From positions 1,116,001-1,180,000 of the forward strand of contig NZ_JHZY01000002.1 in the NCBI RefSeq assembly GCF_000687915.1: DNA of 64,000 nt. The letters are read 5' to 3'. The notes under the pieces are model-generated. The model worked only from the letters and a program-made list of their open reading frames with translations. It was not told the DNA's origin and ran no database searches. A program made the translations under genes and the position numbers. The stretch is from Leeuwenhoekiella sp. MAR_2009_132 (GTDB lineage: Bacteria > Bacteroidota > Bacteroidia > Flavobacteriales > Flavobacteriaceae). Positions 19,768-43,203 of the stretch are shown here, piece after piece (within the stretch, counting starts at the first letter, position 1; each line of letters opens with the position of its first letter).

Positions 19768-19778
19768 TTAAATAGATT

Positions 19779-20099
19779 TTATTTTTGATTTTTATAAGCC
19801 TGCTTTACTAGTTTACCTTTCCTTTCTTCTTTATATTTTAAAATCTGATTTTCCTCCTCAACGAGTTTAAAAAATTCTGAAAGAGATATTTCAAGAAAAT
19901 CGCAAATAGCAAACAACTTACTGCACGTAACATTATGATCAGTAGAAGTATATCTTTCTAATCCTAAACTTTTACCTATCTCAGTGTAATAGCTATTATT
20001 AAGTTCTAGAAGAGCTTGTTCACCTTTATTTTTGTATAGCCTAGTTATCACTGCTGAGATTGCAGTAGTGAGTTCTGGTATTTTTATTTGTTTACCCAT
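19779..20099 (-). CDS. Small HTH (XRE-like) DNA-binding protein
   Basis: A 106-residue basic protein. Residues about 45-90 (YYTEIGKSLGLERYTSTDHN, then CSKLFAICDFLEISLSEFF) look like a diverged XRE helix-turn-helix with the usual second half that places a short N-terminal recognition helix before ICDFLEISLSEFF. The basic C-terminus (KEERKGKLVKQAYKNQK) would help DNA binding. It is the nearest regulator to the folded RNA at 20.23 kb, which starts about 135 bases upstream of its start. The target is unknown. Confidence 0.6.
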   Translation of the reverse strand: MGKQIKIPELTTAISAVITRLYKNKGEQALLELNNSYYTEIGKSLGLERYTSTDHNVTCSKLFAICDFLEISLSEFFKLVEEENQILKYKEERKGKLVKQAYKNQK

Positions 20100-20233
20100 T
20101 AAAACAAATGGACTAATAAAAAATAACTACCACAATTACACATGTGTAATTGAATTTTATTATATTTGATTTAGAATTATATATTTGCGAAACTTCTTAG
20201 TATAAAATATTAGAAGCATTCGCTTTGAATCTC

Positions 20234-20346
20234 GCATTAGAAAACTGGTAATTTTAATAGTGTACGAGAGGATAAGCATGAATGCCTACGACCCGGGCGT
20301 AGGTTCATGGCTTATTTGTACACAGGTATACCAGTACCTCTAATGC
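20234..20346 (+). ncRNA. Candidate structured RNA: long nested hairpin
   Basis: A 113-base region folds on itself almost without gaps. GCATTAGA (20234-41) pairs with TCTAATGC (20339-46). ACTGGTA (20244-50) pairs with TACCAGT (20329-35). GTGTAC (20260-65) pairs with GTACAC (20318-23). TAAGC (20273-77) pairs with GCTTA (20310-14), and ATGAA (20278-82) with TTCAT (20304-08). CCTACG (20285-90) pairs with CGTAGG (20298-303) around an ACCCGGG loop. One internal loop holds TACGAGAGGA, the same ten bases as the 23S sarcin-ricin loop. No coding frame explains it. It may be a regulatory RNA or a palindromic mobile element; it matches no RNA family I can name. Confidence 0.6.
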
Positions 20347-20399
20347 AGTAAGTTGAGCCACGCCCTTTTTTGTATTCAGGGATTTGCAACACTTCAACT

Positions 20400-20715: not shown

Positions 20716-20821
20716 GCTGCAGACCTTACGGTCTGTGAAGAAGAGAAACACCCGGTTGTACGGGTATTAAGCTCAAAAACCTTCCCCTACGAGTGGAATC
20801 CCGGGGAAGGCGTGAGCTTAA
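20716..20821 (+). promoter_or_regulatory. Folded 5' leader of the SusC operon
   Basis: Three stems in a row precede the start at 20859: CAGACC-TTAC-GGTCTG, then ACCCG-GTTGTA-CGGGT. The third is AAGCTC...GAGCTT, which encloses CCTTCCCC...GGGGAAGG around a 15-base loop. Such order suggests a cis-acting RNA switch. Read on the minus strand, the first stem is followed after four bases by nine Ts (20707-20715), which looks like an intrinsic terminator for an antisense transcript. The ligand, if any, is unknown; it does not match the cobalamin, TPP or SAM riboswitch cores. Confidence 0.5.
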
Positions 20822-20858
20822 ATAAAACGATTGTTTCATTTATTAACACGACGAAGAT

Positions 20859-23800
20859 ATGAAAATTTTGACTACGCGCCTTACGGGGGCTGCGTGGATA
20901 CTTGTTACCCTATTTTGGGCAACAGGAAATCTACTCTGGGCAGCAATGCCTCAACAACCAATACGCGGTACCGTTACCGATACGCAGCGAAATCCCATAC
21001 CGGGCGTGAGCATCCGACTGCTCAACAGCAACACGGGTACGCAAACCGATCTACAAGGGGTCTTTAGCATTCAAGCACAACCTACTGATACCTTAAGCAT
21101 CAGTTACCTTGGTTTTAAAACCTTGACCCTGCCGGTGGGGAATCAAACCACATTTACTATAGCATTGCAACAAGACGTTACCGCTTTAGGCGAAGTGACC
21201 ATCAATGCGGGGTATTACAACACCACCCGTCGCGAGCAAACGGGGAGTATCGCCCGGGTAACAGCCGAGGAGATCGAGCGGCAACCGGTGACCAATCCGC
21301 TGGCCGCCTTGCAAGGCAGAATGCCGGGGGTATTTATAACACAGAATACCGGAGTTCCCGGTGGAGCATTCCAGATACAAATACGCGGACAGAACAGTCT
21401 GCGAGCAGAGGGTAATGCTCCTTTGTATATTATAGATGGGGTTCCTATTTCTAGTGACGACCTGGGTGACAGCCGTACAGCCGTCGCATTCCCTGGTGGC
21501 GTGAGCCCACTAAATAGTATTGACCCTAATGCAATAGCCAGCATTGAGGTGCTTAAAGATGCCGATGCTACGGCTATTTATGGCTCTCGTGGTGCTAATG
21601 GTGTCGTGCTTATTACGACAAAAAAAGGGAGTTCCGGTTCAACACAATTCAATTTGGGATACCGCTATGGGATTGGTACGGTTCAGAGCCACTTAGAGCT
21701 CTTAAATACCCAGCAATACCTTGAAGTACGACGGGAAGCTTATGCTAATGATGGCATTACCGAGTACCCCGCCAATGCGTATGACGTAAACGGCACCTGG
21801 GATCCCAACCGGTATACAGACTGGCAGGAGGTCATAATTGGTAATAAAGCCAAGTATCTGGATATTAATGGATCGCTATCGGGAGGAACGGAGCACTTAC
21901 AATTCAGACTCGGTGGTAATTATCACAGAGAAACCACGGTGTATCCCGGTGATTATGCCTATAACAAAATAGGTATTCAAACCCGTACCAGTTATATCAG
22001 CAAGGATAACAAATTCAACGCCAGTCTTTCCGGGAATTTTACGTATCAGACTAACAACCTACCGGAGATGGCAACGTTGATGACAAACATTTATCAATTG
22101 CCTCCCAATGCACCGGCCTTATATAAGGCAGATGGAAGCCTTAACTGGGAGGGTGGCACGTGGCAAAATCCATTTGCTTTACTCGAAAACAACTATAATT
22201 CGGATAGTTATAACTTGATAATGAACACCCAGTTGTCCTATCAACTTGTAAAAGGTTTAGAATTAAAGACCAGTTTAGGATATACCAATACGTATTTTTT
22301 GGATCAATATATACAACCCTCCACGAGTGCAAATCCTGCCTTTGGGTACACTCCTGCTCAATCTAGTATTCGCAAAAACCAGCTTATACGCAATTCTTGG
22401 ATACTCGAACCTCAGCTATCCTATACCCTTAATTTCAACGATTTTAAAATTCAAAGTTTAGTAGGAAGCACCTTTCAAAGCAATACGGCTTCTCAACTGC
22501 ACTTATTTGGTCTAGGCTTCTCTAGCAATCGTCTTATTGAAAATTTAAGCGCCGCAGACCGCCAATTCATCAGCACAGACACAGAGACCAACTATAAATA
22601 CATCGCTATATTTGGACGCGTTAACTTTTCCTTACGTAACCGCTATTTTTTAAATCTAACAGCACGAAGAGATGGCTCCAGCCGCTTTGGACCGGGCAAG
22701 CAATTCTCAAATTTTGGAGCTGTGGGTGCTTCTTGGATTTTCTCATCCGAAAATGGAATCAGGGATTTAGCGTTTTTGAGCTTTGGAAAATTAAGAGGAA
22801 GCTACGGCATAACCGGTAATGATCAGATTGGAGATTATCAATACCTCGATACCTACTCCTTGAGTGCTTCCAGTTATAATGAGACCACTGTACTAGAACC
22901 TTCCCGATTATTCAATCCCGATTTCAGTTGGGAGATGAATAAAAAACTGGAATTAGCCTTAGAGACCGGTTTCTTTAAAGACAGGTTGCTTCTTACTGCA
23001 GCCTGGTACCGAAACAGGTCTTCTAATCAATTAGTGGGAATCCCTTTGGCCGGGACCACCGGGTTTTCATCAATTCAGGCCAACTTAGATGCTACCATTG
23101 AGAATCGTGGATGGGAATTTACACTCCAGTCTAAAACTATAAATAAAGCTGATTTCTCTTGGGAAAGTACCTTTAACCTGAGTATCTCCAGAAATGAGTT
23201 ACTGGCATTTCCTGATCTAGAGAGCTCTACCTATTCAAACAGATACGTTATTGGCGAGCCGCTGAATATTCGAAAGACCTATAATTATGAAGGCCTGGAT
23301 CCTGAAACAGGCTTGTATCAATTCACAGATTATAATGAGGATGGCCAATTGACTTTTCAAGATGACCGAGAAGGAATTACAGATCTCAATCCCGTCTATT
23401 ACGGAGGATTCCAAAATAGTCTTCGTTATAAAGGATTTACTCTTGATTTTCTTTTTCAGTTTGTCAAACAGCAAAACTATAATGCGTTGTACTCCCTGGG
23501 ACAGCCGGGTAGGATGGGTAATACAATTCCCGAAGCTTTTGATCGCTGGCAACAGCCCGGTGATCAGTCTACCTATCAGGCCTTTTCAACAGGCGCTAAC
23601 CGCCCCTTGTATTTACGGTACCTCAATTACAATCAAAGTAATGCGATGATTACTGATGCTTCGTATATACGGCTTAAAACCCTGGCCTTATCCTACAGCC
23701 TGCCTGAAAACCTGATACCGGGGGTTAACTGCAGTATTACCGTACAAGGTCAAAATCTGCTCACCATTACCGATTATAAAGGTTTTGATCCGGAATCTAT

Positions 23801-23861
23801 TTACCCCAACAGCTTACCTCCTTTGCAGGTATTTACTACGGGGGTTCAATTAAACTTTTAA
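20859..23861 (+). CDS. SusC/RagA-type TonB-dependent outer-membrane transporter
   Basis: A 1000-residue protein: signal peptide (about 1-30), carboxypeptidase-regulatory-like domain (about 33-115: IRGTVTDTQRNPIPGVSIRL), plug domain (about 125-240, with IQIRGQNSLRAEG and YIIDGVPI), and a large beta barrel ending in an aromatic residue (VQLNF). It forms the channel of a SusCD 'pedal-bin' importer energised by TonB. It has no STN domain, so no direct anti-sigma signalling is expected. It is followed by SusD (gap of 18 bases) and an S9 peptidase. The link to a peptidase and the lack of glycosidases point to peptides rather than glycans as substrate. Confidence 0.92.
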   Translation: MKILTTRLTGAAWILVTLFWATGNLLWAAMPQQPIRGTVTDTQRNPIPGVSIRLLNSNTGTQTDLQGVFSIQAQPTDTLSISYLGFKTLTLPVGNQTTFTIALQQDVTALGEVTINAGYYNTTRREQTGSIARVTAEEIERQPVTNPLAALQGRMPGVFITQNTGVPGGAFQIQIRGQNSLRAEGNAPLYIIDGVPISSDDLGDSRTAVAFPGGVSPLNSIDPNAIASIEVLKDADATAIYGSRGANGVVLITTKKGSSGSTQFNLGYRYGIGTVQSHLELLNTQQYLEVRREAYANDGITEYPANAYDVNGTWDPNRYTDWQEVIIGNKAKYLDINGSLSGGTEHLQFRLGGNYHRETTVYPGDYAYNKIGIQTRTSYISKDNKFNASLSGNFTYQTNNLPEMATLMTNIYQLPPNAPALYKADGSLNWEGGTWQNPFALLENNYNSDSYNLIMNTQLSYQLVKGLELKTSLGYTNTYFLDQYIQPSTSANPAFGYTPAQSSIRKNQLIRNSWILEPQLSYTLNFNDFKIQSLVGSTFQSNTASQLHLFGLGFSSNRLIENLSAADRQFISTDTETNYKYIAIFGRVNFSLRNRYFLNLTARRDGSSRFGPGKQFSNFGAVGASWIFSSENGIRDLAFLSFGKLRGSYGITGNDQIGDYQYLDTYSLSASSYNETTVLEPSRLFNPDFSWEMNKKLELALETGFFKDRLLLTAAWYRNRSSNQLVGIPLAGTTGFSSIQANLDATIENRGWEFTLQSKTINKADFSWESTFNLSISRNELLAFPDLESSTYSNRYVIGEPLNIRKTYNYEGLDPETGLYQFTDYNEDGQLTFQDDREGITDLNPVYYGGFQNSLRYKGFTLDFLFQFVKQQNYNALYSLGQPGRMGNTIPEAFDRWQQPGDQSTYQAFSTGANRPLYLRYLNYNQSNAMITDASYIRLKTLALSYSLPENLIPGVNCSITVQGQNLLTITDYKGFDPESIYPNSLPPLQVFTTGVQLNF

Positions 23862-23879
23862 TTTCTAAACTATAATTTG

Positions 23880-25307
23880 ATGACCACACCTATATCTAAA
23901 ATTATTCGGAACAAATTACGAGAATTCTCTACCAGTAGTATGGCTTTTACAGTCGGTTTGGTTTTGATGCTGAATCTATTAAGTTCTTGTGAACAATTTA
24001 TTGAAGTAGACCTTCCGAATTCACAATTAACGACAGAAGCTGTTTTTACCGAAAAGGCTACTGCAGAGGCTGCATTGCTGGCCATTTATGCACAGATGCG
24101 GGACAGGGGTATTTTGAGAGACCTCTATTACGAAATGGGTCTATATACAGATGAGCTTGAATTTTACGGAAGCTCAACCTCCAGTAAAGAGGCCTTTCAT
24201 AAAAACAACTTGATTCCCTCCCACCCTACAGTTAGCAGCTGGTGGAACACTACGTATACCCAAATCTATGGAGCTAATGCATTGCTCAAAGGACTGGAAG
24301 AATCAGCATTAGATGAAGCGTTTAAAAAGCAGCTTAATGGAGAAGCTCTATTTATTAGAGGTTTAAATCAGTTTTACCTCACCGTTCTCTATGGCGAAGT
24401 ACCTTATGTTACATCTACAGATTATCAGCAAAATACGGTACTGTCAAAAATCCCGATACAAGAAGTTTTCAAAAAGGTTGAAGCGGACTTGACACAGGCC
24501 ATTGCCCTGCTTGATTGGGAATATTCCACGGCAGACCGCACACGGGCAACTAAAGGGGTCGCCTTGGCAGCACTAGCACGGGTATCTCTTTACACGGGTG
24601 ATTGGCAACAGGCGGTTGATGCCACAACTGCGATTATCAACCATTCTGATTTGTATGAATGGGAAACCGATTTGAACAAGGTTTTTCTGAAGGAAAGCAG
24701 GTCTACGCTGTGGCAGTTTTCGCCTAGAGGAGCCGGAGTCAATACCCCGGAAGCAATCTCTTTTATTTTTAATACAGCTCCCCCACCTACGGTTGCCTTA
24801 ACCCCTAACTTGGTCTCTAGTTTTAAGGATGCTGACCAACGCTTAGCACAATGGATTCAGGAGGTGTCTAATGGTTCGCAATCCTATTACCATCCTTTTA
24901 AATACAAAACCCGGGGAAATACCAGTAGTTCTGTAGAGTATTCCATTCTATTTCGAATGGCCGAAGTCTATTTGATTCGCAGTGAGGCCTATGCGCGCCT
25001 GGACCAATTGGAACTTGCTAGCCTCGATTTGAATATCGTACGCGGGCGTGCAGGCTTGACTGATGTGGAGTATAGCACTAAAGAAGAACTGTTAGAACAA
25101 ATACTAATCGAGCGCAGGCACGAACTTTTTACCGAAGCAGGACAGCGCTTTTTTGATCTGAAACGAAGCAATCGTTTAGATGCTGTTTTAGAGCCTTTAA
25201 AAGCGGGTTGGAAACCCACTAACCAACTCCTGCCGCTTCCTGAAAACGAATTGATTATCAACCCAAACCTGGCACCTCAAAACCCAGGCTATCAGTCCGG
25301 CAATTAG
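23880..25307 (+). CDS. SusD/RagB-type outer-membrane substrate-binding lipoprotein
   Basis: The ATG at 23880 is preferred over a TTG one codon upstream; an internal methionine at 23940 also precedes the signal. The lipobox is LLSSC, with cysteine at about residue 37, so the mature protein is lipid-anchored at the outer surface. The TPR-like helical fold of SusD follows, with the conserved RMAEVYLIRSEAYARL and ERRHELFTEAGQRFFDLKR segments in the C-terminal third. It captures the ligand and closes over the SusC barrel encoded just upstream; the S9 peptidase follows after 9 bases. Confidence 0.92.
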   Translation: MTTPISKIIRNKLREFSTSSMAFTVGLVLMLNLLSSCEQFIEVDLPNSQLTTEAVFTEKATAEAALLAIYAQMRDRGILRDLYYEMGLYTDELEFYGSSTSSKEAFHKNNLIPSHPTVSSWWNTTYTQIYGANALLKGLEESALDEAFKKQLNGEALFIRGLNQFYLTVLYGEVPYVTSTDYQQNTVLSKIPIQEVFKKVEADLTQAIALLDWEYSTADRTRATKGVALAALARVSLYTGDWQQAVDATTAIINHSDLYEWETDLNKVFLKESRSTLWQFSPRGAGVNTPEAISFIFNTAPPPTVALTPNLVSSFKDADQRLAQWIQEVSNGSQSYYHPFKYKTRGNTSSSVEYSILFRMAEVYLIRSEAYARLDQLELASLDLNIVRGRAGLTDVEYSTKEELLEQILIERRHELFTEAGQRFFDLKRSNRLDAVLEPLKAGWKPTNQLLPLPENELIINPNLAPQNPGYQSGN

Positions 25308-25316
25308 TCTTAAACT

Positions 25317-27866
25317 ATGCAATTTAAACAGGCACTACTATACATACAGCCAGCAATCCTGATTATCGTTTCAGGATATTCCCTGTGGGCACAGCAGCCC
25401 AAAAGATCTATTCCTCGGGAGGATTATAAACGCTGGTACACGCTGAGTTCGACTTCTTTCTCGGATAATGGCGAATGGATAGGGTATACCAAGTATTATG
25501 ATGAGCAGGAAGATACGCTTGTGATACAAGATACTTATTTAAAGCGCAGGTATAGCTTTGCGGCCGCATCTCTTGGAGGATTCATAAGTTCAAAAGCGGT
25601 AATGATCAATAGTGGTGATCATTCTCTACACGTTGATTTGGAGACCGGAAAGACCATTATACTACCCAATAAGGCGAAGCTTGTGGACGCGATGCCAACA
25701 GGTTGGTATGCCATTTATTATAAAGGTCTCGGAAAATTGATCATTACGAGCACGACTTCAGCCGAAAACTTAACTATTGACGGGCTTATAGCTTACGAAT
25801 ACGCACCCACTGCACGGTCGTTTTTAATTACCCGTCAAGTAGACGGTTCGCAACTACTGGAATTAATTTTACTAGATCGATTACAGGAAGTTGTTCCAAT
25901 TCAAGACCTCAAAGGTTATAAACTGATGGAAACCACTTGGCAGGACAACGGCGAGCGTCTGGCCTATACCCTAGTACCCAAAACAGAGGATTCAGATCCT
26001 GTAGTTTTTGGAAGACTAGCCGTCTACACCTTAAAAACCGGGCAAAAAAAGTGGTTGCCACAGAAATTAGATTCAGCAGAGTTTAAAGGTTATCAACTTA
26101 AACAGGAGTGGCAAAATCCTTTACACTTGGCTTCAGACGGCACTAAAGTAGCCTTTAGCTATAGACGAAAACCCCTACTAGAATCTGATGAAATCCCGGA
26201 AATCTGGCACAGTACAGATCCCTATTTAGTAGCAGGAATGCGCTACCGCATGGGGGGTGCCAACTTAAACCGGGTGGCATTATGGGATTTAAGCACAAAC
26301 GAAATTACAGCAGTTACGAATGATCGCTTTACGGAAGTGGTTTTTGATCCCGGTTTAAACTATGCAGTAGTATACGATCCCAGCTCCTACCGCCCCAGTG
26401 TGCTACAAGAACCACCGATTGACCTCTATTTAAAGAACCTTAAAACCGGAAGCACACAGTTACTGGAAACGTCCTACACGGGGCATAAACTGGATATTGC
26501 ATTTAGTCATCAGGGAAGGTATCTGGCTTACCCGAGCAAAGGAAAAGTAAATATCTATGATCTTTCTGTACGGCAAGATGAGATGCCTGGTCTCTGTATT
26601 GCTCCAGACCAAAACGATTTAGGAACTAGCGAGCTGGTTGCGTGGTATTTGAATGAAGAGTCGGTGCTTTTACAGGGTAAGTTTGACCTTTGGAAACTAA
26701 ATCTAAAAACTCAAGAGCTCAAGGCATTAACTCAGGGTAGAACCTCTGGAATTGTTCACAAACTGATTAAACCCAATCGGGAATGGATGCCAGAAAAAGA
26801 CGATCCACTTTTCTTGGAAATGAGCCGGGACTATGCTCAGGGTTATACGGTAATTAATCCCGGGAAGGAGCCTAAACTGATTACCTTCGGAGCAGATTAT
26901 GTAAAATGGCCTAAGATATCACCTGATTCCAAAACCCTGATTTATTTGTCTGAAGCTTATAATCGCCCTAAGGCTTTGGAGGTATTTCACTTAGGAGCAT
27001 CTAAACCACAGCGCATCTTTCAAAGCAATCCGCAGTATAGGGACTACGAACTTCCGAGGCAAGAACTCATCCACTACACGAATGCGCAAGGTGATAGCCT
27101 TCAAGGGATTTTACGCTATCCTACCGGTTATAATGAAAATAAACACTACCCCATGGTAGTTTATGTGTATGAAAAGCAGAGTCAAACCTTTAATCACTAT
27201 ACCAACCCGGGATTTAACACCACTATTGGATTTAATCCGGCCAATATGGTCAACCGGGGGTATTTTGTATTACAACCCGATATTGCATATAAGCCCGGAG
27301 AAACCGCTTTTTCAGCAACGGATTGTATTCTCGCAGGTACACATAAAGCCTTGCAACAAGTTCAGTCCATCGACCCGCAACGTTTAGGCCTTATAGGGCA
27401 TTCGTTTGGCGGTTTTGAAACCGGTTTTACCGTGACCCAAACTGATCTGTTTACCACGGCTATTTCCGGAGCAGGCATTTACGACAACCCTTCTTTTTAC
27501 TTATTTGTACAAGATCATACTAGTCCTGCTTATTATCAATATGAAGAAGGTCAATTGCGTATGCCCAAAAATCTATTTAATGATTATCAAGGGTATCTGG
27601 AAAATTCAGCACTCTATCATGCACGAGATATGAATACTCCCCTACTCTTATGGTCTGGCCGGGAAGATCATCATGTTGATTTTAACCAGACAATTGATTT
27701 TTATATGGGGTTGAAGCGCCTTCAAAAATCGGTAACCATGTTGCTGTATCCCGGGATGGGTCATTCTGCAAATAAGCCAGAGGACCAAAAGGATCTCAGT
27801 CTAAAAGTAGAACACTGGTTTGATCATTATCTTAAAGGTATTCCTGCCGAAGATTGGATGCGTTAA
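25317..27866 (+). CDS. S9-family (prolyl oligopeptidase-type) serine peptidase
   Basis: An 849-residue protein with signal sequence (about 1-25), a beta-propeller of roughly 550 residues and a C-terminal alpha/beta-hydrolase domain. The triad is visible: GHSFGG (serine near 696), SGREDHHVDF (aspartate near 784) and PGMGHSANKP (histidine near 816). S9 enzymes cleave short peptides, usually after proline or as dipeptides. As the third gene of the SusCD operon it probably trims peptides before or after import through SusCD. A strong terminator follows 20 bases later. Confidence 0.9.
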   Translation: MQFKQALLYIQPAILIIVSGYSLWAQQPKRSIPREDYKRWYTLSSTSFSDNGEWIGYTKYYDEQEDTLVIQDTYLKRRYSFAAASLGGFISSKAVMINSGDHSLHVDLETGKTIILPNKAKLVDAMPTGWYAIYYKGLGKLIITSTTSAENLTIDGLIAYEYAPTARSFLITRQVDGSQLLELILLDRLQEVVPIQDLKGYKLMETTWQDNGERLAYTLVPKTEDSDPVVFGRLAVYTLKTGQKKWLPQKLDSAEFKGYQLKQEWQNPLHLASDGTKVAFSYRRKPLLESDEIPEIWHSTDPYLVAGMRYRMGGANLNRVALWDLSTNEITAVTNDRFTEVVFDPGLNYAVVYDPSSYRPSVLQEPPIDLYLKNLKTGSTQLLETSYTGHKLDIAFSHQGRYLAYPSKGKVNIYDLSVRQDEMPGLCIAPDQNDLGTSELVAWYLNEESVLLQGKFDLWKLNLKTQELKALTQGRTSGIVHKLIKPNREWMPEKDDPLFLEMSRDYAQGYTVINPGKEPKLITFGADYVKWPKISPDSKTLIYLSEAYNRPKALEVFHLGASKPQRIFQSNPQYRDYELPRQELIHYTNAQGDSLQGILRYPTGYNENKHYPMVVYVYEKQSQTFNHYTNPGFNTTIGFNPANMVNRGYFVLQPDIAYKPGETAFSATDCILAGTHKALQQVQSIDPQRLGLIGHSFGGFETGFTVTQTDLFTTAISGAGIYDNPSFYLFVQDHTSPAYYQYEEGQLRMPKNLFNDYQGYLENSALYHARDMNTPLLLWSGREDHHVDFNQTIDFYMGLKRLQKSVTMLLYPGMGHSANKPEDQKDLSLKVEHWFDHYLKGIPAEDWMR

Positions 27867-27886
27867 GTAGTAAGTAATATAAATTA

Positions 27887-27919
27887 GAAAGGTGAACCAA
27901 GAGGTTCACCTTTCTTTTT
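27887..27919 (+). terminator. Intrinsic terminator, bidirectional
   Basis: GAAAGGTGAACC and GGTTCACCTTTC form a perfect 12-bp stem with an AAGA loop, followed by TTTTT. It separates the converging S9 peptidase and DUF6520 genes. On the minus strand the run after the stem is weaker, so it ends mainly the plus-strand SusC-SusD-S9 transcript. Confidence 0.9.
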
Positions 27920-27938
27920 ACACAATCAGTTTATAAAT

Positions 27939-28223
27939 CTACTGATTGGGACGATACAGAACTACTGTACATCTTTGCGCCTCATCTAAACCAAAAATTT
28001 GGGCATTAGCAGGATCAAGATCTACCGTACACAGATTTCCTGTGTTGATCGTGGTACAGATGTCGTGAGGTTCACATTCCATCTGGTTTCCGTTTACGCG
28101 CTCATAACCTTGCTGGTCTGTCGCAAGTTCAGAACGTTCAGCCATTGCCTGTGTGGCAAAGGCACCGGTTAGGGCTACTACAACAGCAAGTGCTCCTAAA
28201 CGTTTTTTTACTTGAATTTTCAT
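27939..28223 (-). CDS. DUF6520-type secreted four-cysteine peptide
   Basis: A 94-residue protein: basic start, hydrophobic core and AMA cleavage site (signal about 1-28), then a mature peptide of about 66 residues with cysteines at 50, 56, 65 and 85. The layout (ATQA..A cleavage region, ECEPHDIC, LCTVD, RCTVVLYRPNQ) is that of the DUF6520 family of flavobacteria. The even cysteine number suggests two disulfides in the periplasm or outside. The next gene on the strand encodes a MauE-type redox membrane protein that could oxidise it. The function is unknown; a signal peptide, toxin or SusCD ligand are all possible. Confidence 0.75.
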   Translation of the reverse strand: MKIQVKKRLGALAVVVALTGAFATQAMAERSELATDQQGYERVNGNQMECEPHDICTTINTGNLCTVDLDPANAQIFGLDEAQRCTVVLYRPNQ

Positions 28224-28300
28224 AATACTAAAATATTAATTAATGATCTACTCTATATTTTAGCAGGTTTTCGATCTTACCCCTGCAATCATGATTATCG

Positions 28301-29794
28301 TTAGTGGGTGACATTCAGTAATGGGTTGAGATCATAAACGACCAGATGCTCTCCAGAAAATCCGTAAAACGCTTTATCGCTTACAAAAAAGCGGGTCAGT
28401 CGCTGCTCCTTTTCCGGGTAAACATAAAAGCTGCTGCGGTAACTGCCGTCTTTCAGACTATACACATCAATGGTTTCGGTCTGCTCCCAGGGTTTGGTCG
28501 GTTCATACCTTCCCTTAACTTTAGAGAGTATATACAATAGGTTATTATGACTGTAGGTAGTTGCATTAACAAGCAAGGAACCGGTAAGTTTATGCTGCCC
28601 GGGTTTAGAGATGGAGTCTATACGCAGTTGCGCTTGTTCCAGTGTATCAAGTGTATGACCCGTATACTGCAGATTTACATCCTGATCCAATACCTGGAAA
28701 CTGTTGCGGTAATTGTAGGTATATACCCAGTGCTCCGTAACGGAGTCATAATTCAAATGCCCGTCTACATCAAAATAGCCATCAACTTGTTTTTCTAAGA
28801 TTCCCGTTAGGAACTGATAGGGTAAAGAATCCTTCAGTTGGATTGATAATAAATCCTGTTGGAGGGTTTGAGGATGATAAGCTCTTGCAACTATTGCCGT
28901 GGTATCCCGAAGTACATACTCATTAAAAGAAATTTTACCATTAAAGTGTTGGTAGCTTTTCCACGCTCCTACATCCCCTCTTAGTACCTGTGAGATTTGT
29001 CCGTCAATCAAATAAAAATAAGGTGGGTTTATCCGCAACTGTACCGCTGTAGAAGGTAAATCGGCTTCGGGAACTTCAATGGTTTTCACCATCAGACTAT
29101 CGGTTACCCGGTTTAATAACCCAATTCTAAGGGGGGTGCGGTAATTACCCAGATAGAAAAATGCAGAATCCTTGCCGGCTAAGTAATAAGATGCACTTTT
29201 TAAATCAATGCTTTTCATTTTTTTAACACCGTGAGAATACCGGCGTATAAATGGGTTTTCGGTGTGCATCAACTGTTCTGAATTCCAAAACAACAGCAGG
29301 ACGCTACTCGTTGATAGCAGCATAATACCTAAAGACAGGGAGATTGAAGTGATACGAGTTCTACTACTCGTTCTGTCGCCTTTACACACCAGAGCGATCA
29401 GGACCAATACAACACAAACCCCATTAAAGATTAAATGTTCCGTCCATCCCAGAGATTCCAAAATTCCCCCGCATGAGCAAGGAACAAAATCAGCATAGTT
29501 GAGGATGATCACTATATAAGCTGTAAAAGCGCTCATCAAACCCAAACTTCCGTATAAACCTACTTTACGTAAACTGGAAAATAGCAACATACTACCTAGC
29601 ACATATTCACTAAGCGGTACTAGCCAAGCCAGCACTCCGGCATAGGCACTTAATAGCGGAGATTGCGCCAGTTGCACCTGAAACTGCTCACAGTCTATAA
29701 GCTTACTCGTTGCCGCATAGACAAAGAGCAGGATATAGAAGTAACAAACCAGATCAATAAAAATGTGTGAATAGTTAGTTTTTTGAGTGCTCAT
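28301..29794 (-). CDS. MauE/DoxX-type redox membrane protein with large C-terminal extracytoplasmic domain
   Basis: A 497-residue protein. The first 170 residues are four or five membrane helices with the MauE-like pattern, including VPCSCGG (C106, C108), a CxC pair suited to thiol-disulfide exchange; MauE is needed for disulfide formation in methylamine dehydrogenase. After a further membrane helix near 150-170, about 320 residues of beta-rich sequence follow (repeated YLAGKDSAFFYLGN, VLRDTTAIVARAY, LDTLEQAQLRIDS), possibly a beta-propeller on the periplasmic face. It lies upstream of the DUF6520 peptide on the same strand and is probably its maturation or transport partner. Confidence 0.75.
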   Translation of the reverse strand: MSTQKTNYSHIFIDLVCYFYILLFVYAATSKLIDCEQFQVQLAQSPLLSAYAGVLAWLVPLSEYVLGSMLLFSSLRKVGLYGSLGLMSAFTAYIVIILNYADFVPCSCGGILESLGWTEHLIFNGVCVVLVLIALVCKGDRTSSRTRITSISLSLGIMLLSTSSVLLLFWNSEQLMHTENPFIRRYSHGVKKMKSIDLKSASYYLAGKDSAFFYLGNYRTPLRIGLLNRVTDSLMVKTIEVPEADLPSTAVQLRINPPYFYLIDGQISQVLRGDVGAWKSYQHFNGKISFNEYVLRDTTAIVARAYHPQTLQQDLLSIQLKDSLPYQFLTGILEKQVDGYFDVDGHLNYDSVTEHWVYTYNYRNSFQVLDQDVNLQYTGHTLDTLEQAQLRIDSISKPGQHKLTGSLLVNATTYSHNNLLYILSKVKGRYEPTKPWEQTETIDVYSLKDGSYRSSFYVYPEKEQRLTRFFVSDKAFYGFSGEHLVVYDLNPLLNVTH

Positions 29795-29878
29795 CCTAAT
29801 TAGTATTAGGTCTCAAAGTTCTAAATACTTGTTGGTTATGGGGTTGCCCCATACGGCCTCAAAATAGTCTAAATAGCC

Positions 29879-30790
29879 CTATTTTAAATTAGTGGAACGA
29901 AACAGACGTGGGGAACTCGAATAAAACTCTTTAAATTTTCTTGAAAAATGGGCTAGGCTTTTATAACCACATTGATTGGAAATAACACTTATAGGGAGTT
30001 CTGTCGTTTTTAATAACAATGCAGCCCGTTCTAAACGTTTTTTATTATGAAATTGATGAATGGTTAATCCATAGGCATTTTTGAATTCCGACTTGAGTTT
30101 CGTTTGATTGGTTTGGTGTAGCAGACCTATTTGTTTTAAAGCGGGTAAAGGTTTATTTAGGTTACGTAAAACGTAAAGTCTTACATTTTTAACCAGAATA
30201 CGATTTGAAGCACTTTTTGATTTTAAGGATTTATAATTTAATTCACCTTGATGCGTATTTGATTTGAGGCTTTGATTTTTAAAATCCTCATATATACTCA
30301 GTACATAGGCTTTCTTTTTATTCTTTTTAAAAAGGATTCCTAGTGTACAATTTGCTCTTAGAATACGATTGTCGGCAGTTTTAAAATCAAGTGAAAAAAG
30401 GTCCTGATTTAATGGTTCACTCATACTACTTTGCAGTTCTTTCTGGAGTAAGGGTATTGAATATTCCGTTAAAAGCTGATTGATGGAAGTATTGATGTTT
30501 TTACGTAATTTTTTATGTCCCAACCTATCTAAAAAGGCAAATGAATAGTTGCTAATTTTACCTTCTTGATCAAAAACCACAAGTACGGGTCTCGTGTTTG
30601 TAGCTAATTGGGATACATTTTCGTAATTGAAATAGGCAACTTCTTCCGCCATTATATTTAATAACTCCCCTAAGGTATCAAGTGCATCCCTACGTCCAGA
30701 AATTTTATGGCGGTATTCAAAATTCCCTCCAGCGATTTCAATAATTTGCTCAAATAGCTGATTAAAGCGTTCCTTGTCATTGCGTTCCAT
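29879..30790 (-). CDS. PAS-like/AraC-family transcriptional regulator
   Basis: A 303-residue protein. A PAS-like region (about 65-165: RPVLVVFDQEGKISNYSFAF, typical of PAS strands) precedes an AraC DNA-binding domain (about 200-303) with ISNQCGYKSLAHFSRKFKEFY in the second HTH. No membrane segment is seen, so the signal is sensed in the cytoplasm. It sits between the MauE-type gene and the STAS-like gene, all on the minus strand, and is the likely regulator of the peptide block and perhaps of the oxoamine-synthase gene across the intergenic region. Confidence 0.8.
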   Translation of the reverse strand: MERNDKERFNQLFEQIIEIAGGNFEYRHKISGRRDALDTLGELLNIMAEEVAYFNYENVSQLATNTRPVLVVFDQEGKISNYSFAFLDRLGHKKLRKNINTSINQLLTEYSIPLLQKELQSSMSEPLNQDLFSLDFKTADNRILRANCTLGILFKKNKKKAYVLSIYEDFKNQSLKSNTHQGELNYKSLKSKSASNRILVKNVRLYVLRNLNKPLPALKQIGLLHQTNQTKLKSEFKNAYGLTIHQFHNKKRLERAALLLKTTELPISVISNQCGYKSLAHFSRKFKEFYSSSPRLFRSTNLK

Positions 30791-30817
30791 AAAATGTAAA
30801 AACTAAAGTGAATACCA

Positions 30818-31186
30818 TCACTTGAATTTTTTCAAGAATTCAAGAGCCTCTATTTTATTCATAAAAATTTGTGTTGGGATTTTCACTGTGGTAGTATGCA
30901 GATACATTCTTAAGATCAATAAAGAATGTTCATCTTTCACTAAAAAAGCCAAGGCTTTAGTCATCAATGAACCTTCTAATGCCAGATAATCTCTAGCTTC
31001 CTTTTGTGCGCTATGGACTTCTCGTAAATCACAGAAAATAGGATAAGCTATTTCATTCTGTAATTCTAAACGCTGATGCACTAAAACTTTAGCGCGTTTA
31101 ATATCAATTAAACATACAGGCTTATAGACGAAAAATAATATTCCGTCTACAATCCACATTTTCGCAAATTCTCCATCCACTACCAT
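30818..31186 (-). CDS. STAS-like (SpoIIAA-type) small protein
   Basis: A 122-residue soluble protein with an alternating beta/alpha pattern (FFVYKP, IFCDLREV, ALAFLVKDEHSLLILRMYL, EALEFLKKF). This resembles the SpoIIAA/STAS-like proteins (DUF7793-type) that accompany AraC regulators in flavobacteria. It has no evident phosphorylatable serine in a DSS motif. The end of this gene is 27 bases from the start of the AraC gene downstream, so the pair is co-transcribed. It probably acts as a signalling partner of the regulator. Confidence 0.6.
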   Translation of the reverse strand: MVVDGEFAKMWIVDGILFFVYKPVCLIDIKRAKVLVHQRLELQNEIAYPIFCDLREVHSAQKEARDYLALEGSLMTKALAFLVKDEHSLLILRMYLHTTTVKIPTQIFMNKIEALEFLKKFK

Positions 31187-31317
31187 CCCGCTAAAGTTTT
31201 GGATTACTCGAATTTATAAAATTCTATTTAATATCAATTTGATCTAAAAGTCATCATACTTCTTCAAAAAGACTTTTTGCTAATTTAATTTGCGAGATTT
31301 TGATTCTATTTGACTTA

Positions 31318-31347
31318 TTGGTCTTAAAACTTGTCTCAAAAGACCAA
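31318..31347. promoter_or_regulatory. Inverted repeat TTGGTCTT-N14-AAGACCAA, candidate operator
   Basis: Two perfect 8-base arms 14 bases apart lie in the divergent region between the STAS-like gene (minus) and the oxoamine-synthase gene (plus), about 70 bases before the latter's start. Symmetry and position suit a dimeric regulator, possibly the AraC-type protein encoded nearby, though AraC sites are more often direct repeats. Confidence 0.45.
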
Positions 31348-31418
31348 CTTATAAAAGCTTAACGCACTGCTTGTGAAATAATATTTAGCTTCAATTAGAC
31401 AATCTAAAACCTATTAAA

Positions 31419-33824
31419 ATGGCTAAAATAAAACACAACAATTTTTTGGACACCGTAGATAATGTTATTGCGGATGCCAAATCGGCTGGAATTATACATC
31501 TGCATGCGGAAGACTCCAGGTTAAGTGGAAGGTATATTACAATCAATGGAATTCAATGCTATCATTTTGGTACCACGGGATATTTAGGTTTAGAGCAGGA
31601 CAGCCGAATTAAAACAGCTGCGGTACAAGCCATATTAAGGTATGGCACGCAGTTTCCACTTTCTAAGACCTATATCGCTCATCCACTGTATGCCCAATTG
31701 GAAGAAAAATTAGAGCTGCTTTTCAATAACCCGGTTATCGTAACCAAAAACAGTACGTTAGGGCACCTGGCCGTGATTCCAACTGTTGTTCGGGATGAGG
31801 ATGCTGTTCTTTTAGATCATCAGGTTCACTGGAGTGTTCAAAACGCAGCTCAACTTTTAAAAGTCCGAGGAATTCCCGTTCATCTCATTCGGCATAACAA
31901 TTTGGAAATGTTAGAATCGCTGCTGAAAAAACTCTCTTCCAAAGTTTCTAAAATCTGGTATATGGCAGACGGGGTTTATTCTATGTATGGCGATTATGCT
32001 CCGGTTAAAGAACTTTTAGCACTTTCTATAAAATACCCCCAACTCCACCTCTACTTCGATGATGTGCATGGAATGAGCTGGAAGGGAAAAAATGGAATGG
32101 GTTATGTGATGAGCCAATTGGAAAGTCTTCCGGAACATGTACTTGTTTTTGGCACCTTGAGTAAAACCTTTGGTGCTTCTGGTTCCGTCTTAGTATGTTC
32201 CAACAAAAAATTATACAATCAGATTAAAAATTTTGGAGGCCCTCTAACCTTCTCGGCACAATTAGAACCCAGTGCTGTAGGTGCTGCTATCGCTTCAGCT
32301 GCTATTCATTTATCGGATGAAATTTATTCTTTACAAGACGAATTAAAACAACGTATTGATTACTTCAACAGGTTGCTATCCAAGACTAAATTACCGCTGA
32401 TCGCTACAAATGACTCTCCTGTATTTTATATCGGAACGGGTCTGCCTGCAACCGGATACCAATTGGTAAAGCGCTTGATGGATGGCGGTTTTTTTGTCAA
32501 TTTAGGGCTGTTTCCTGCTGTACCTGTTAAAAATACCGGAGTGCGCATTACCATTTCCACTCATAATCGTTTTGAAGATATTAAACTTCTTACAGAAGCA
32601 TTAGTTATTCATTACGATAAGGCCTTAGCCGATACGGGCAATTCAACCACCCGAGTAGGCAAGGCGTTTCGAATGAACTTTCAAGAAACACCGCCACTTC
32701 CCATAAAACACGAGGTATTGAGGCTTGAAGAATTTACTCGTATTTCTGAGGTAGATAAATCCCTTTGGAATGATACAGTAGGTAAAAACAATATGATGGA
32801 CTGGGACGGGCTGCAGTTTCTGGAAAATACGTTTCAGGGCCAAGCAGCTCAAGAACACAATTGGAACTTTAAGTACCTACAAATTATGGACGACTTGAAT
32901 CAACCGGTTTTAATGGGTTTTGTGACAGAAAGTTTATGGAAAAACGATATGTTATCCCCACCTGCAGTTTCGAAAAAACTGGAAGAACAACGCGAACAAA
33001 ACCCTTATGCACAAACTTCCCGAGTTTTGGCCTTGGGTTGTTTATTTACAGAAGGAGAACACCTCTATGTTAATTCAAAACATCCACAGGTAAACGAAGC
33101 GCTTGCCTGCTTTTTAGAATACCTAGAGGCCTTAAGTCAAAAGCTGGAAGTATCCCTTACGGTATTACGGGATTTTGATACGGGTTCAATCTGGTCTAAA
33201 ACCTTTCAAAATCAAGGATATATTCCTATTGATATGCCCGACTCGTGTGTCGTATTTGAGTTGGATCAAAAAAACGATGCAGCCTATTCGAACTACCTCT
33301 CTAAACGCTCTCAAAAACACTTTAAAAAAGATATTCAGCCCTATGAAGAGCTTATTAAAATGCAAATCATATCAGCTCCAGGTACTAAAACGATTCAACT
33401 CTTTTATGGACTTTACAAGCAGGTAAAAGCTAAAAATTTTGGTTTGAATACGTTTACCTATCCTTTGGCTGTTTTTCAAAATATGTCCAAACATCCCAAT
33501 TGGGAGTTTATCGTTTTAAAAGCGAAATCTGATGATCGGATTCTGGGAGTGATGTTTTGTTATAAAAATTATTCGGGGACCTATGTGACCAGTTTGATTG
33601 GAATGGATTACAGCTATCTTGAGGCGTTTCAAACCTATCGCCAACTGCTCTATCAATCGATTCTAAGGGCACGACAACTGAAATTTACACAGATTGATTT
33701 TGGGGTAAGTGCCAGCTTTGAAAAAAGAAAACTGGGAGCTACTCTTATCCCCAAACAGGCATTCCTGCAAACCGACGATAACTTTCTTTTGGAACAATTG
33801 GAAATGATGAGAACAAGTAACTAA
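31419..33824 (+). CDS. Alpha-oxoamine synthase fused to a GNAT/FemAB-like acyltransferase
   Basis: An 801-residue two-domain enzyme. Residues about 30-410 are a PLP-dependent alpha-oxoamine synthase (BioF/serine palmitoyltransferase family): stacking histidine in DHQVHW, YFDDVHG (D214/D215/H217) and the PLP lysine in GTLSKTFGASG (K249). Residues about 430-801 resemble GNAT/FemAB-like (PF04339-type) acyltransferases (YLSKRSQKHFKKD, QIDFGVSASFEKRKLGA). Serine palmitoyltransferase-like condensation followed by N-acylation is the logic of sphingolipid and sulfonolipid synthesis in Bacteroidota, so this one polypeptide could catalyse both steps. The amino acid used cannot be told. It is divergent from the peptide/regulator block and 27 codons upstream of RteC. 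Confidence 0.8.
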   Translation: MAKIKHNNFLDTVDNVIADAKSAGIIHLHAEDSRLSGRYITINGIQCYHFGTTGYLGLEQDSRIKTAAVQAILRYGTQFPLSKTYIAHPLYAQLEEKLELLFNNPVIVTKNSTLGHLAVIPTVVRDEDAVLLDHQVHWSVQNAAQLLKVRGIPVHLIRHNNLEMLESLLKKLSSKVSKIWYMADGVYSMYGDYAPVKELLALSIKYPQLHLYFDDVHGMSWKGKNGMGYVMSQLESLPEHVLVFGTLSKTFGASGSVLVCSNKKLYNQIKNFGGPLTFSAQLEPSAVGAAIASAAIHLSDEIYSLQDELKQRIDYFNRLLSKTKLPLIATNDSPVFYIGTGLPATGYQLVKRLMDGGFFVNLGLFPAVPVKNTGVRITISTHNRFEDIKLLTEALVIHYDKALADTGNSTTRVGKAFRMNFQETPPLPIKHEVLRLEEFTRISEVDKSLWNDTVGKNNMMDWDGLQFLENTFQGQAAQEHNWNFKYLQIMDDLNQPVLMGFVTESLWKNDMLSPPAVSKKLEEQREQNPYAQTSRVLALGCLFTEGEHLYVNSKHPQVNEALACFLEYLEALSQKLEVSLTVLRDFDTGSIWSKTFQNQGYIPIDMPDSCVVFELDQKNDAAYSNYLSKRSQKHFKKDIQPYEELIKMQIISAPGTKTIQLFYGLYKQVKAKNFGLNTFTYPLAVFQNMSKHPNWEFIVLKAKSDDRILGVMFCYKNYSGTYVTSLIGMDYSYLEAFQTYRQLLYQSILRARQLKFTQIDFGVSASFEKRKLGATLIPKQAFLQTDDNFLLEQLEMMRTSN

Positions 33825-33931
33825 GTGAATGTAGCGTTGAAAAAGTCAACGTGTTTGATTGTCAACTAATCCATTGCTCTTTGAACATACTTCTCCCTCA
33901 TTATTTATTAACCCGCCTAGTTAATAATACG

Positions 33932-34762
33932 ATGTTTGACACTGAAATACACAACTTTCACACGATGCTAAATACACAGGTATTGTGTATTATAGACCCG
34001 TTAAAAAAGGCAGATGCAGGTATAGAGATTGCTAATACCTCCCTGTCCAAATTAAAAGAACTGGTGGAACAGGAAGATTTTGAAAACGTTCCTGAAGAAA
34101 TTGATTTTTTTAAAAATATCAAGCCTTGTCCGATGAGTTATCTCATCTATTTCTCAGAGATGCGTTCGTGTGAATCGCGAAAACCAAAAGCCGGAGAAAG
34201 CTTTCAACTTCGATTTTTTGAAAAAGAACTGCGCAAGATCAATAAATTTTTTTACCGAAATAATGATTTCGTTCAATATATGGAACAGGGGCATTCCTAT
34301 ATGGACCATCAACTTTTTACACGCAATCACCGCAAAAATTTCCCATTTACTCCAACTATCAATTATTACCAGTATCCCGAGTTTTCGAGTTCTCATGATA
34401 TGCTCTGGGCAAAAATACAAGCGATGTATCGTTTGATCCATTATATCCGGGAAGCTATAGCATCTTTAAAGCCCGGGATGATTGAAAATTTTGCTTCGCA
34501 ACAACATCCCGTACTCTTATGGTCAGGCTCCAAAACAGCTTTGGTCGAATTAATCTATGCATTATATGCCTCTGGAGATCTCAATCACGGTACCTCAGAA
34601 ATAAGTAGTATCGCAGCTTCTTTCGAAGACTTCTTCAACATCAAACTCGACAACATTTACAAAACCTATTCAGAAATCAAAGCACGTAAAAACAGACGTT
34701 CAAAATATCTTGAAAATCTCATAGTGAATTTAGAAGCGAAGATGAATAAGGATGATGAGTAG
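33932..34762 (+). CDS. rteC: RteC-like ICE excision regulator
   Basis: About 276 residues from ATG 33932; the frame is open back to a GTG at 33851, but the family begins at MFDTEIHNF. RteC of CTnDOT-type elements activates the excision (xis) genes. Here the next genes are an excisionase-like HTH protein and replication-type proteins, which fits. The motif-rich middle (YLIYFSEMRSCESRKPKAG, RNHRKNFPFTP) and the C-terminal SKTALVELIYALYASG region are as in RteC proteins. It marks the left portion of the ICE. Confidence 0.85.
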   Translation: MFDTEIHNFHTMLNTQVLCIIDPLKKADAGIEIANTSLSKLKELVEQEDFENVPEEIDFFKNIKPCPMSYLIYFSEMRSCESRKPKAGESFQLRFFEKELRKINKFFYRNNDFVQYMEQGHSYMDHQLFTRNHRKNFPFTPTINYYQYPEFSSSHDMLWAKIQAMYRLIHYIREAIASLKPGMIENFASQQHPVLLWSGSKTALVELIYALYASGDLNHGTSEISSIAASFEDFFNIKLDNIYKTYSEIKARKNRRSKYLENLIVNLEAKMNKDDE

Positions 34763-35046: not shown

Positions 35047-35316
35047 ATGCCAGCAACACTTATTACCACAGACGATCTTCGCGAATTCAAAATGGAATTA
35101 CTGGAAGATCTTAAAGCCCTTCTTTCCAATCAAGCTCCCGGAAAACTCAAAAAGTATTTAAAGAGTGCTGAAGTAATGAAGTTACTTCAAGTAAGTCCTG
35201 GAACCTTGCAAAACTTGCGCATCAACGGGACACTACCCTATACCAAAGTAGGCGGAATCATTTACTATGATGCTCAGGAAATTCAACACGTGATGGATAC
35301 CAATCGTGTTCAATAA
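35047..35316 (+). CDS. Excisionase-like helix-turn-helix protein
   Basis: An 89-residue protein. The C-terminal half is a MerR-like winged HTH (HTH_17 type): KSAEVMKLLQVSPGTLQNLR, then the wing GTLPYTKVGGIIYY. The N-terminal part is a short helix (DLREFKMELLEDLKALL). Such proteins are Xis-type recombination directionality factors or replication regulators of Bacteroidota conjugative elements. It lies next to RteC, which controls excision genes, and is preceded by the attenuator-like hairpins. Confidence 0.82.
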   Translation: MPATLITTDDLREFKMELLEDLKALLSNQAPGKLKKYLKSAEVMKLLQVSPGTLQNLRINGTLPYTKVGGIIYYDAQEIQHVMDTNRVQ

Positions 35317-35325
35317 AAAGTTCTT

Positions 35326-35991
35326 ATGAATTACATCAAACATCTAAATGCTGTCTTTCAGGCTTTTTATACCGATAATCGGTTGAATACGGCACACATT
35401 AGTCTGTATATGGCAGCATTTCAATTTTGGAACGTAAGTCGGTTTTCACCTCAATTTTATGTCAATCGAGAGGAACTGCGGCGGATGGCTAAAATAGGAT
35501 CCAATCGCACGTATCTGAAATGTATGAGAGATCTTCATACGTGGAAGTATCTCAAATACACCCCTTCCCATAATCCTTTTAAAGGAAGCGAAATTAAGAT
35601 GTACACTTTTGCACCAACTGCTACACCAAGTAGTGCACCAACAACTACACAAACTGGTAGTACAGTAGAGCACCAAGAAGTGAACCCTTATATAAAACAT
35701 GATAAAACAGATAAAAACGATTTAAACAAACCTAAACATGCCAAGGCGGTTTTTGATTTTTTTAAATCTAAAAAATATCCTGTAGAAGAAGCAGCAGCTT
35801 TTTTATTACACTACGATCAGGCAGATTGGTTAACCTCAGGAGGTGAACCAATCCGAAACTGGGAGGCTATTGCGGTACACTGGATGGCTCAAAGTAAAAC
35901 TGCTGATGAAAGAAAAAAAAGAAAGCCAGACGTAAACTTTAACGATCCATTACAGGTCAACAATTTCAAAAACTATGGAGAACCCTTGTAA
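35326..35991 (+). CDS. ICE replication-type HTH protein
   Basis: A 221-residue protein with an N-terminal winged-helix-like region (about 1-100: HLNAVFQAFYTDNRLNTAHI, SLYMAAFQFWNVSRF, FYVNREELRRMAKIGSNRTY) typical of replication-initiator or transcription-factor-like genes beside DnaC-like ATPases in Bacteroidota ICEs. A linker rich in Thr/Pro follows (TATPSSAPTTTQTG). The C-terminal part (VFDFFKSKKYPVEEAAAFLL, NWEAIAVHWM) resembles a DnaD-like loader-interacting segment. Its 3' end overlaps the next gene by 17 bases, so they are translationally coupled. Confidence 0.65.
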   Translation: MNYIKHLNAVFQAFYTDNRLNTAHISLYMAAFQFWNVSRFSPQFYVNREELRRMAKIGSNRTYLKCMRDLHTWKYLKYTPSHNPFKGSEIKMYTFAPTATPSSAPTTTQTGSTVEHQEVNPYIKHDKTDKNDLNKPKHAKAVFDFFKSKKYPVEEAAAFLLHYDQADWLTSGGEPIRNWEAIAVHWMAQSKTADERKKRKPDVNFNDPLQVNNFKNYGEPL

Positions 35992-38537: not shown

Positions 38538-38550
38538 AATTATTTTGTGT

Positions 38551-39954: not shown

Positions 39955-39965
39955 TTTGGTGAGTT

Positions 39966-43130: not shown

Positions 43131-43203
43131 AAAGAGTTATTTTAAAACGTGTTTAGTTTGACCAACTCATTTGGAGAGGTCTCTTCTTTACTATTTTTTA
43201 GTT

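Follow-up and report, generated by a model that had tools for sequence, protein, structure and literature searches.

Gene content of the locus

We investigated a gene cluster on a 64,000-nt stretch of Leeuwenhoekiella sp. MAR_2009_132 (NZ_JHZY01000002.1; hereafter the window, whose positions serve as coordinates), in which a plus-strand SusC-SusD-peptidase operon faces a minus-strand block encoding a small cysteine peptide of family DUF6520 and a MauE-type membrane protein. The operon comprises a SusC/RagA TonB-dependent transporter (20859..23861; TIGR04056, 724 bits), a SusD lipoprotein (23877..25307; Pfam SusD-like_3 and SusD_RagB), and an S9 peptidase with a GHSFGG motif and, by eye, a Sec-type signal (25317..27866; Pfam Peptidase_S9, E = 1.8e-26). 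Facing it on the minus strand are the DUF6520 precursor peptide (27939..28223; Pfam PF20130, 35.6 bits against a cut-off of 25.4), with invariant cysteines C50, C56, C65, and C85, and a MauE membrane domain with an invariant C106-S-C108, fused to a beta-propeller at about residues 185-497 (28301..29794; Pfam PF07291, 103.5 bits against a cut-off of 27). A HAMP/PAS-like AraC regulator (29879..30790) and a DUF7793 protein (30818..31186; Pfam, 136.5 bits) complete the minus-strand block, and an alpha-oxoamine synthase (AOS) fused to an acetyltransferase-like domain (31419..33824, plus strand) diverges from it.

This layout agrees with an earlier note made from the letters of the DNA: all open reading frames (ORFs) lie where that note had placed them and match the families it named, and the oxoamine synthase is an AOS-type pyridoxal phosphate enzyme, although its acyltransferase part is weak (C-terminal Acetyltransf_6, 21.2, just under the cut-off of 22). 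The extra domain reported on MauE is present, and is the beta-propeller of the predicted structure. Two labels required revision. The supposed STAS-like protein is a genuine ORF that belongs to DUF7793, its STAS label having found no support, and the supposed PAS/AraC regulator has the AraC helix-turn-helix (HTH) with only a weak PAS match in the window protein (E = 0.15); of three orthologues, two have PAS matches with E between 0.004 and 0.05, and two match HAMP. DUF6520 and DUF7793 are listed in Pfam as families of unknown function, no named role was found for the MauE-propeller protein in the protein family libraries searched, and a protein search with the window peptide returned six close relatives only, all DUF6520.

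Conservation of the gene unit in Bacteroidota

Two samples were used to measure how often these genes occur together. The first was collected with the MauE protein as sole query, keeping the best 80 of 159 relatives, and is thereby selected for the fused propeller; except where Pfam is cited, genes in the fetched loci were labeled with home-made profiles derived from those same loci. DUF6520 was present in 78 of the 80 loci, SusD in 77, SusC in 76, and S9 in 75, and the peptide was lost to overlapping ORFs or the locus end in L007 and L069. The remaining neighbors are less regular, with RteC within the stretch in 34 loci, DUF7793 in 11, and the oxoamine synthase in 9.

The second sample, 100 genomes of the family, was searched with Pfam DUF6520, which gave 30 rows in 16 genomes, 25 of them above cut-off, and all 30 neighborhoods were inspected. 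Twenty-seven peptides were re-detected; MauE or a propeller was found within 2.5 kb of 24 of them, and SusD on the opposite strand within 3.3 kb of 24 (L121 and L124 do contain the MauE gene, though it was hidden by the mechanical choice of ORFs). The complete unit, i.e., MauE or propeller plus opposite-strand SusD, occurs at 20 of the 25 above-cut-off matches. Among the other five, two lie at contig ends (L122 and L139), one has a transposase in between (L135), one is a second copy (in L129), and one is without MauE (L138). Three sub-threshold rows (L140, L143, and L144) have neither a unit nor a re-detected peptide. Twelve of the 25 above-cut-off peptides have RteC no more than 8 kb away, although the 100 genomes hold only 44 RteC matches, fragments included. 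Random distribution of the homologues was thus tested and failed to hold: across the 80 loci and the 100 genomes co-localization is far above chance, the convergent arrangement is kept in several families of Bacteroidota, and MauE-DUF6520 facing SusC-SusD-enzyme is a real conserved unit. Its occurrence in about 100 loci gives DUF6520, DUF7793, and the MauE-propeller protein one testable context.

Cysteine number, propeller, and co-divergence with SusC

The number of cysteines in the peptide goes with the presence of the propeller. In the family sample, all 14 four-cysteine peptides have a propeller on or beside MauE, and the 12 two-cysteine peptides divide into nine with MauE and no propeller, one with a propeller, and two that are uninformative; the single five-cysteine peptide has no MauE near it. 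All 79 peptides of the MauE-fetched set, selected as it is for the propeller, have four cysteines. These four cysteines are invariant among peptides with 19-37% identity to that of the window, and the CxC is invariant in 35 MauE proteins. The earlier note had proposed that MauE helps oxidize the peptide; the link between the two is supported because cysteine number and propeller match, and MauE probably oxidizes the peptide.

The enzyme of the SusCD operon is exchangeable. Across loci it is S9, M16, a met-zincin (DUF4953), AhpC-TSA/redoxin or, once, an amidohydrolase, so that S9, which had been regarded as part of the system, is present in the window and in 75 of 80 loci and is not essential to it. 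Divergence of the peptide was more closely related to that of SusC than to that of MauE. In statistics that ignore phylogeny, and with linked genes co-inherited, the rank correlation of pairwise distances between peptide and SusC was 0.35 (18 of 27 mixed loci usable) and 0.52 (73 of 80 S9-type loci), and the partial correlation given MauE was 0.32 and 0.35, respectively, with none of 500 permutations as high. The partial correlation between peptide and MauE given SusC was only 0.11 (18 loci) and 0.18 (73 loci). Since peptide divergence tracks SusC better than MauE, SusCD may be the importer of the peptide, and the peptide may be the ligand of SusCD. The proposal that SusCD and S9 import or process peptides is therefore moderately supported in its peptide-SusCD part, by co-divergence.

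Setting on an integrative and conjugative element

The gene for RteC, a family of excision regulators of integrative and conjugative elements (ICEs), directly follows the oxoamine synthase in the same direction (33851..34762; Pfam RteC, 214.7 bits), and is itself followed by an HTH_17-type protein and two conserved ICE genes (clusters c2, c5, and c8; 35047..36631, plus strand). TraG, TraK, TraN, the MobB relaxase, and MobC lie at 46-57 kb of the window, and a tyrosine recombinase lies about 12 kb to its left (L149). This is the gene set of a CTnDOT-like ICE, with TraG and MobB over their cut-offs, RteC over that of Pfam, and the recombinase present; the matches to TraK, TraN, and MobC are significant, though below NCBIfam cut-offs. 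Given the tra/mob genes on one side and the recombinase on the other, the block is on an ICE. The ICE link drawn by the earlier note is hence correct, but the block sits among the ICE genes and does not merely adjoin them.

Pfam DUF6520 has two matches in the genome of the window. At the second (L003), an oxoamine synthase, DUF7793, AraC, a short propeller-less MauE, and DUF6520 face an M16 peptidase, SusD, and SusC, with M16 in place of S9. This copy is flanked by a recombinase remnant and, about 25 kb past SusC, by an rteC-tra block; a type I restriction-like cluster (named by eye) lies in between.

The same ICE carries, at 37212-44815 of the window, a second operon of SusC (STN domain below cut-off), SusD, and a phosphodiesterase, with c3/c4 (FecR/sigma cluster) genes. 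An AAA_13-type ATPase at 16627-18105 matches the PADLOC candidate defense models PDC-S06 (E = 2.5e-41), and a 1544-aa protein near it has a weak PDC-M54A match; PADLOC returned no defense family among the six unit proteins tested.

Regulatory block, oxoamine synthase, and 21-bp repeats

The regulatory block varies among loci, consisting of AraC/DUF7793/oxoamine synthase, of a TPR histidine kinase with response regulators, or of larger or smaller AraC-type proteins. In the 100 genomes there are 11 copies of the oxoamine synthase, in nine genomes, and all are beside a high-scoring DUF7793 (>130 bits). These 11 are exactly all DUF7793 matches above 130 bits; the remaining 15 score below 50 bits and are not beside an oxoamine synthase. 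RteC is within 0.3 kb of eight of the 11 copies. Because the oxoamine synthase occurs in only nine of 80 loci and is always beside DUF7793, we place it on the regulatory side, and the suggestion that a lipid enzyme modifies or anchors the peptide found no support. The enzyme is nearest to BioF and serine palmitoyltransferase (SPT), and reaches the cut-off of none of the NCBIfam enzyme models listed. It is far from the CqsA-type autoinducer synthase model (NF005526, 64.1 bits against a cut-off of 428), and its PDB match to CqsA (E = 2.6e-12) ranks behind BioF and SPT. A diffusible signal is a possible product.

The intergenic region between the oxoamine synthase and DUF7793 contains the direct repeat TTGTCTNNNNGGGATT, whose period is exactly 21 bp. 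Its summed score over 17 such regions was 530, against 173 ± 14 in shuffles that keep base composition only and begin from the same seed motif, and against 228-341 for other periods. Fifteen of the 17 regions score above 24, those below being L021 (9.2) and the window (19.1, a weak score; 31310..31346, plus strand). In 2.2 Mb of loci, 44 repeat sites pass the threshold, 41 of them outside long ORFs, and 29 of these 41 are either in the same intergenic region or just upstream of MauE. The window has a diverged copy at the latter position too (29844..29880, plus strand), found by a loose pattern that yields 1.3 chance matches per window; other loci have the repeat at the same position. The repeat looks like an AraC-type operator, for which it is a candidate. 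Elsewhere, at 14238-17906 of L129, five copies of the 21-bp repeat surround an extra outer-membrane beta-barrel gene (OMP_b-brl_3), and this region holds an additional five-cysteine peptide.

A structured RNA upstream of SusC

Between SusC and the next gene upstream lies non-coding DNA, usually 0.1-2 kb. It contains a conserved block of about 215 nt before SusC (20151-20377 in the window), with a promoter-like start and two competing folds. The promoter-like stretch (TA..TTTGCG; 20151..20192, plus strand) is conserved in the alignment and may correspond to the Bacteroidota promoter motif. It precedes R1, a bistable structured RNA that ends in a terminator-like stem and U-run (20193..20369, plus strand), and a small HTH protein (cluster c1, found in 33 loci; Pfam HTH_26 below cut-off) is encoded divergently from it (19779..20099, minus strand). 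In the rod fold of R1, changes affecting both partners of a pair were counted in 71 cells, compared with 32.6 ± 4.1 in shuffles, and in the terminator-like fold in 33, compared with 20.4 ± 4.2, counts that use single-member structures and so favor these folds over slid controls. A search of Rfam (window 19700-21000, E up to 5), which together with one literature search was the only search directed at R1, returned only two chance-level eukaryotic models.

With the covariance model of R1, 58 of 110 fetched loci gave a score above 80 bits. Among 100 regions upstream of SusC, 55 have R1 alone, 25 have the extracytoplasmic function (ECF) sigma/FecR pair alone, 18 have neither, and two have both, as counted from whole-locus searches with the pair scored near SusC. 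In these two (L122 and L126) R1 stands at a greater distance upstream of SusC, and in L126 it immediately precedes the sigma gene. Strict mutual exclusion of R1 and the ECF/FecR pair, considered at one point, is therefore withdrawn; the co-occurrence weakens this side result and leaves the odds of the readings weighed below unmoved. In the 100 genomes R1 has 42 matches in 21 genomes (six were left unfetched), with three matches in the genome of the window and a single place, 20194-20367, in the window itself. Twenty fetched copies lie outside the loci described so far: five are upstream of a sigma gene and a dCas12f-like protein, 12 have the small divergent HTH gene, and two are before a SusC. 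Some of the 20 have no co-directional gene within 1 kb. R1 is thus a widespread candidate for the control of SusCD genes. A local duplicated target for R1 was sought in each locus, with no consistent match.

Between R1 and SusC, the window has another 480 nt of folding non-coding DNA (20380-20858), parts of which are 81-90% identical in L021. Over its whole length the SusC leader shares 74% identity with that of the second copy (L145), and the folding z-score of 20200-20858 is -4.2. The R1 motif GAAAACTGGT was also seen by eye beside the start codon of DUF7793, and antisense to the DUF7793 mRNA, in L123, L126, L127, L128, L130, and L132.

Putative dCas12f guides and their match to R1 in two genomes

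The dCas12f-like protein of L163 matches "Nuclease-deactivated Cas12f" in the PDB (9n9c, E = 3e-194), the sigma factor of L161 matches RpoE (9n9q, E = 8e-62), and guide-RNA-like repeats lie downstream of dCas12f. Genome G094 has a DUF6520 unit (L136) whose SusC is preceded by R1, and the guide GCGTGGGCTCTCTTAT of that genome agrees with this R1 at 17 of 18 positions, with a 5′ G; a guide of G063 matches R1 before a SusC at 16 of 18, also with a 5′ G; the best matches are 12 of 18 in the genome of the window (G000) and 11 of 18 in G031. Only these counts are used, because the guides themselves occur in most of the control stretches. A further three guides, in G000 and G094, are unlike R1. The corresponding segment of the window's R1 (20297..20317, plus strand) has no second copy within three mismatches elsewhere in its genome, so that a matching guide for it was rejected, and targets of the dCas12f guides of the window's genome were looked for and not found. 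That genome has a dCas12f-sigma locus with three tandem guide-RNA-like repeats (L161, G000:C4:103000-105700) and a second dCas12f at C4:1401731.

With a threshold of E = 1e-30, dCas12f was detected in four of the 100 genomes, all with R1. Because the other 17 of the 21 R1 genomes are without dCas12f, this protein alone does not account for R1. Transcription that began within R1, downstream of the terminator's first half, would evade termination. R1 also provides a candidate natural target set for RNA-guided sigma factors.

A maturation and uptake system for the peptide, and its alternatives

We propose, with a probability of roughly 0.4, that the unit is an ICE-borne system for peptide maturation and uptake, linked to ICE control, in which the peptide is the ligand of SusCD. 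The DUF6520 peptide would be exported by Sec, and its cysteines would be oxidized in the periplasm by the CxC membrane protein MauE, the attached or neighboring propeller being needed for four-cysteine (two-disulfide) peptides and not for two-cysteine ones. The SusCD transporter, encoded convergently, would then take the peptide as its ligand or cargo, and the operon enzyme (S9, M16, met-zincin, redoxin, or amidohydrolase) would cut or reduce the imported material. The AraC/DUF7793/oxoamine-synthase block, or a two-component system elsewhere, would switch the module, and since this block adjoins rteC, a signal is probably passed from the module to the ICE. Should a dedicated SusCD indeed carry the peptide as its cargo, this would provide a first handle on peptide communication or competition by mobile elements of Bacteroidota.

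Several observations weigh against this proposal. The co-divergence may partly reflect shared ancestry of linked genes, as stated above. The two-cysteine peptide of L129 has a propeller, and the DUF6520 model (pLDDT 75.5) has no PDB match at E < 0.001. M16, zincin, and redoxin each occur with both two- and four-cysteine peptides, as do all enzyme classes seen more than once except S9, and tight specificity between enzyme and peptide is therefore unlikely. No gene for export from the cell was seen in the unit; with SusCD importing, the peptide may stay in the periplasm. Moreover, 40 of 106 loci have no ICE marker in the stretch examined.

In a rival reading, the peptide assists SusCD or the operon enzyme in the periplasm, as plug, chaperone, or inhibitor; the operon would import foreign peptides as food, and the ICE would carry it as a fitness gene. 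The free exchange of enzyme classes and the lack of a visible exporter in the unit both suit such a role, and oligopeptide uptake by SusCD and peptidases is an established theme (PMC9723704, which cites P. gingivalis). Invariant cysteines in a fast-evolving peptide and their match with the propeller nevertheless point to a dedicated product, and adjacent regulators plus rteC would be unusual for plain nutrient import, so that we consider a helper somewhat unlikely. It is rather unlikely that the peptide is a microcin-like antagonist of ICE-free cells, with SusCD and the enzyme giving the producer immunity by uptake and inactivation, in the manner of a TonB receptor and lasso isopeptidase. The best named NCBIfam relative of the S9 protein is indeed the Atxe2 lasso isopeptidase model, and fast-changing peptides in multiple copies (seven matches in G094) would fit an arms race, but the score is far below that of an isopeptidase (NF033523, 87.8 bits against a cut-off of 400), and the match to AtxE2 itself (E = 7.8e-6) is surpassed by those to other S9 peptidases. 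Redoxin or zincin replaces S9 in several loci, and no toxin-like fold, exporter, or immunity gene was seen. The two halves of the unit do recombine, as would unrelated cassettes (peptide-MauE and SusCD-enzyme) that merely hitch-hike in a cargo hot spot beside rteC; yet the convergent arrangement persists in the 40 loci without an ICE marker and spans several families, and peptide divergence tracks SusC, which makes hitch-hiking alone very unlikely.

The maturation and uptake proposal can be extended to a full peptide pheromone circuit of Bacteroidota ICEs, which we consider unlikely as a whole. In such a circuit, a peptide matured by MauE-propeller would be released, read via SusCD and its enzyme, and relayed by AraC/oxoamine-synthase or two-component regulators to rteC, tuning transfer to the number of ICE carriers. 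The bistable terminator RNA, mostly replacing the ECF sigma factor, would hold the uptake arm, and a chromosomal dCas12f-sigma would, in some genomes, start transcription inside the RNA and bypass the terminator.

Comparison with known systems

Searches of the open-access literature (PMC) returned nothing on DUF6520, on NVEALA in Bacteroid-, or for multi-term ICE combinations, and only unrelated titles for MauE with SusC. A Riemerella ICE is described with a TonB-dependent receptor named as cargo, and the excerpt in question includes no SusD or MauE (PMC6491836). The small RNA Rfp18 and SusCD-peptidase uptake are described in PMC9723704.

In the SusCD/RagAB peptide-uptake operons, too, a secreted peptidase is encoded together with SusC and SusD. 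Unlike them, the operon studied here is tied to a cysteine peptide and MauE, and R1 before SusC (55 of 100) mostly replaces the ECF/FecR pair. In lasso peptide loci, an S9-type hydrolase is found beside a TonB-dependent receptor and a small peptide gene. The window unit shares these three elements with the TonB receptor/isopeptidase (AtxE2) loci, but its S9 protein is far below the isopeptidase cut-off, no lasso synthesis genes were seen, and its enzyme is exchangeable. In the maturation of methylamine dehydrogenase, MauE is accompanied by the disulfide-rich MauA and the propeller MauB; the window unit likewise combines MauE with a beta-propeller and a small partner rich in cysteines.

The dCas12f-sigmaE system is an RNA-guided transcription system (structures 9n9c and 9n9q). 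R1 is connected with it in lying upstream of sigma and dCas12f genes in five loci and in matching guides in two genomes; the differences are that 17 of 21 R1 genomes are without that dCas12f at E = 1e-30 and that the guides of the window's genome match their own R1 poorly. Finally, CTnDOT is an ICE regulated by RteA, RteB, and RteC. As in CTnDOT-type elements, the regulators of the window lie directly beside rteC, followed by an HTH_17-type gene and conserved genes, but AraC/DUF7793/AOS, or a TPR kinase with response regulators, replace RteAB, and the peptide genes are attached to them.

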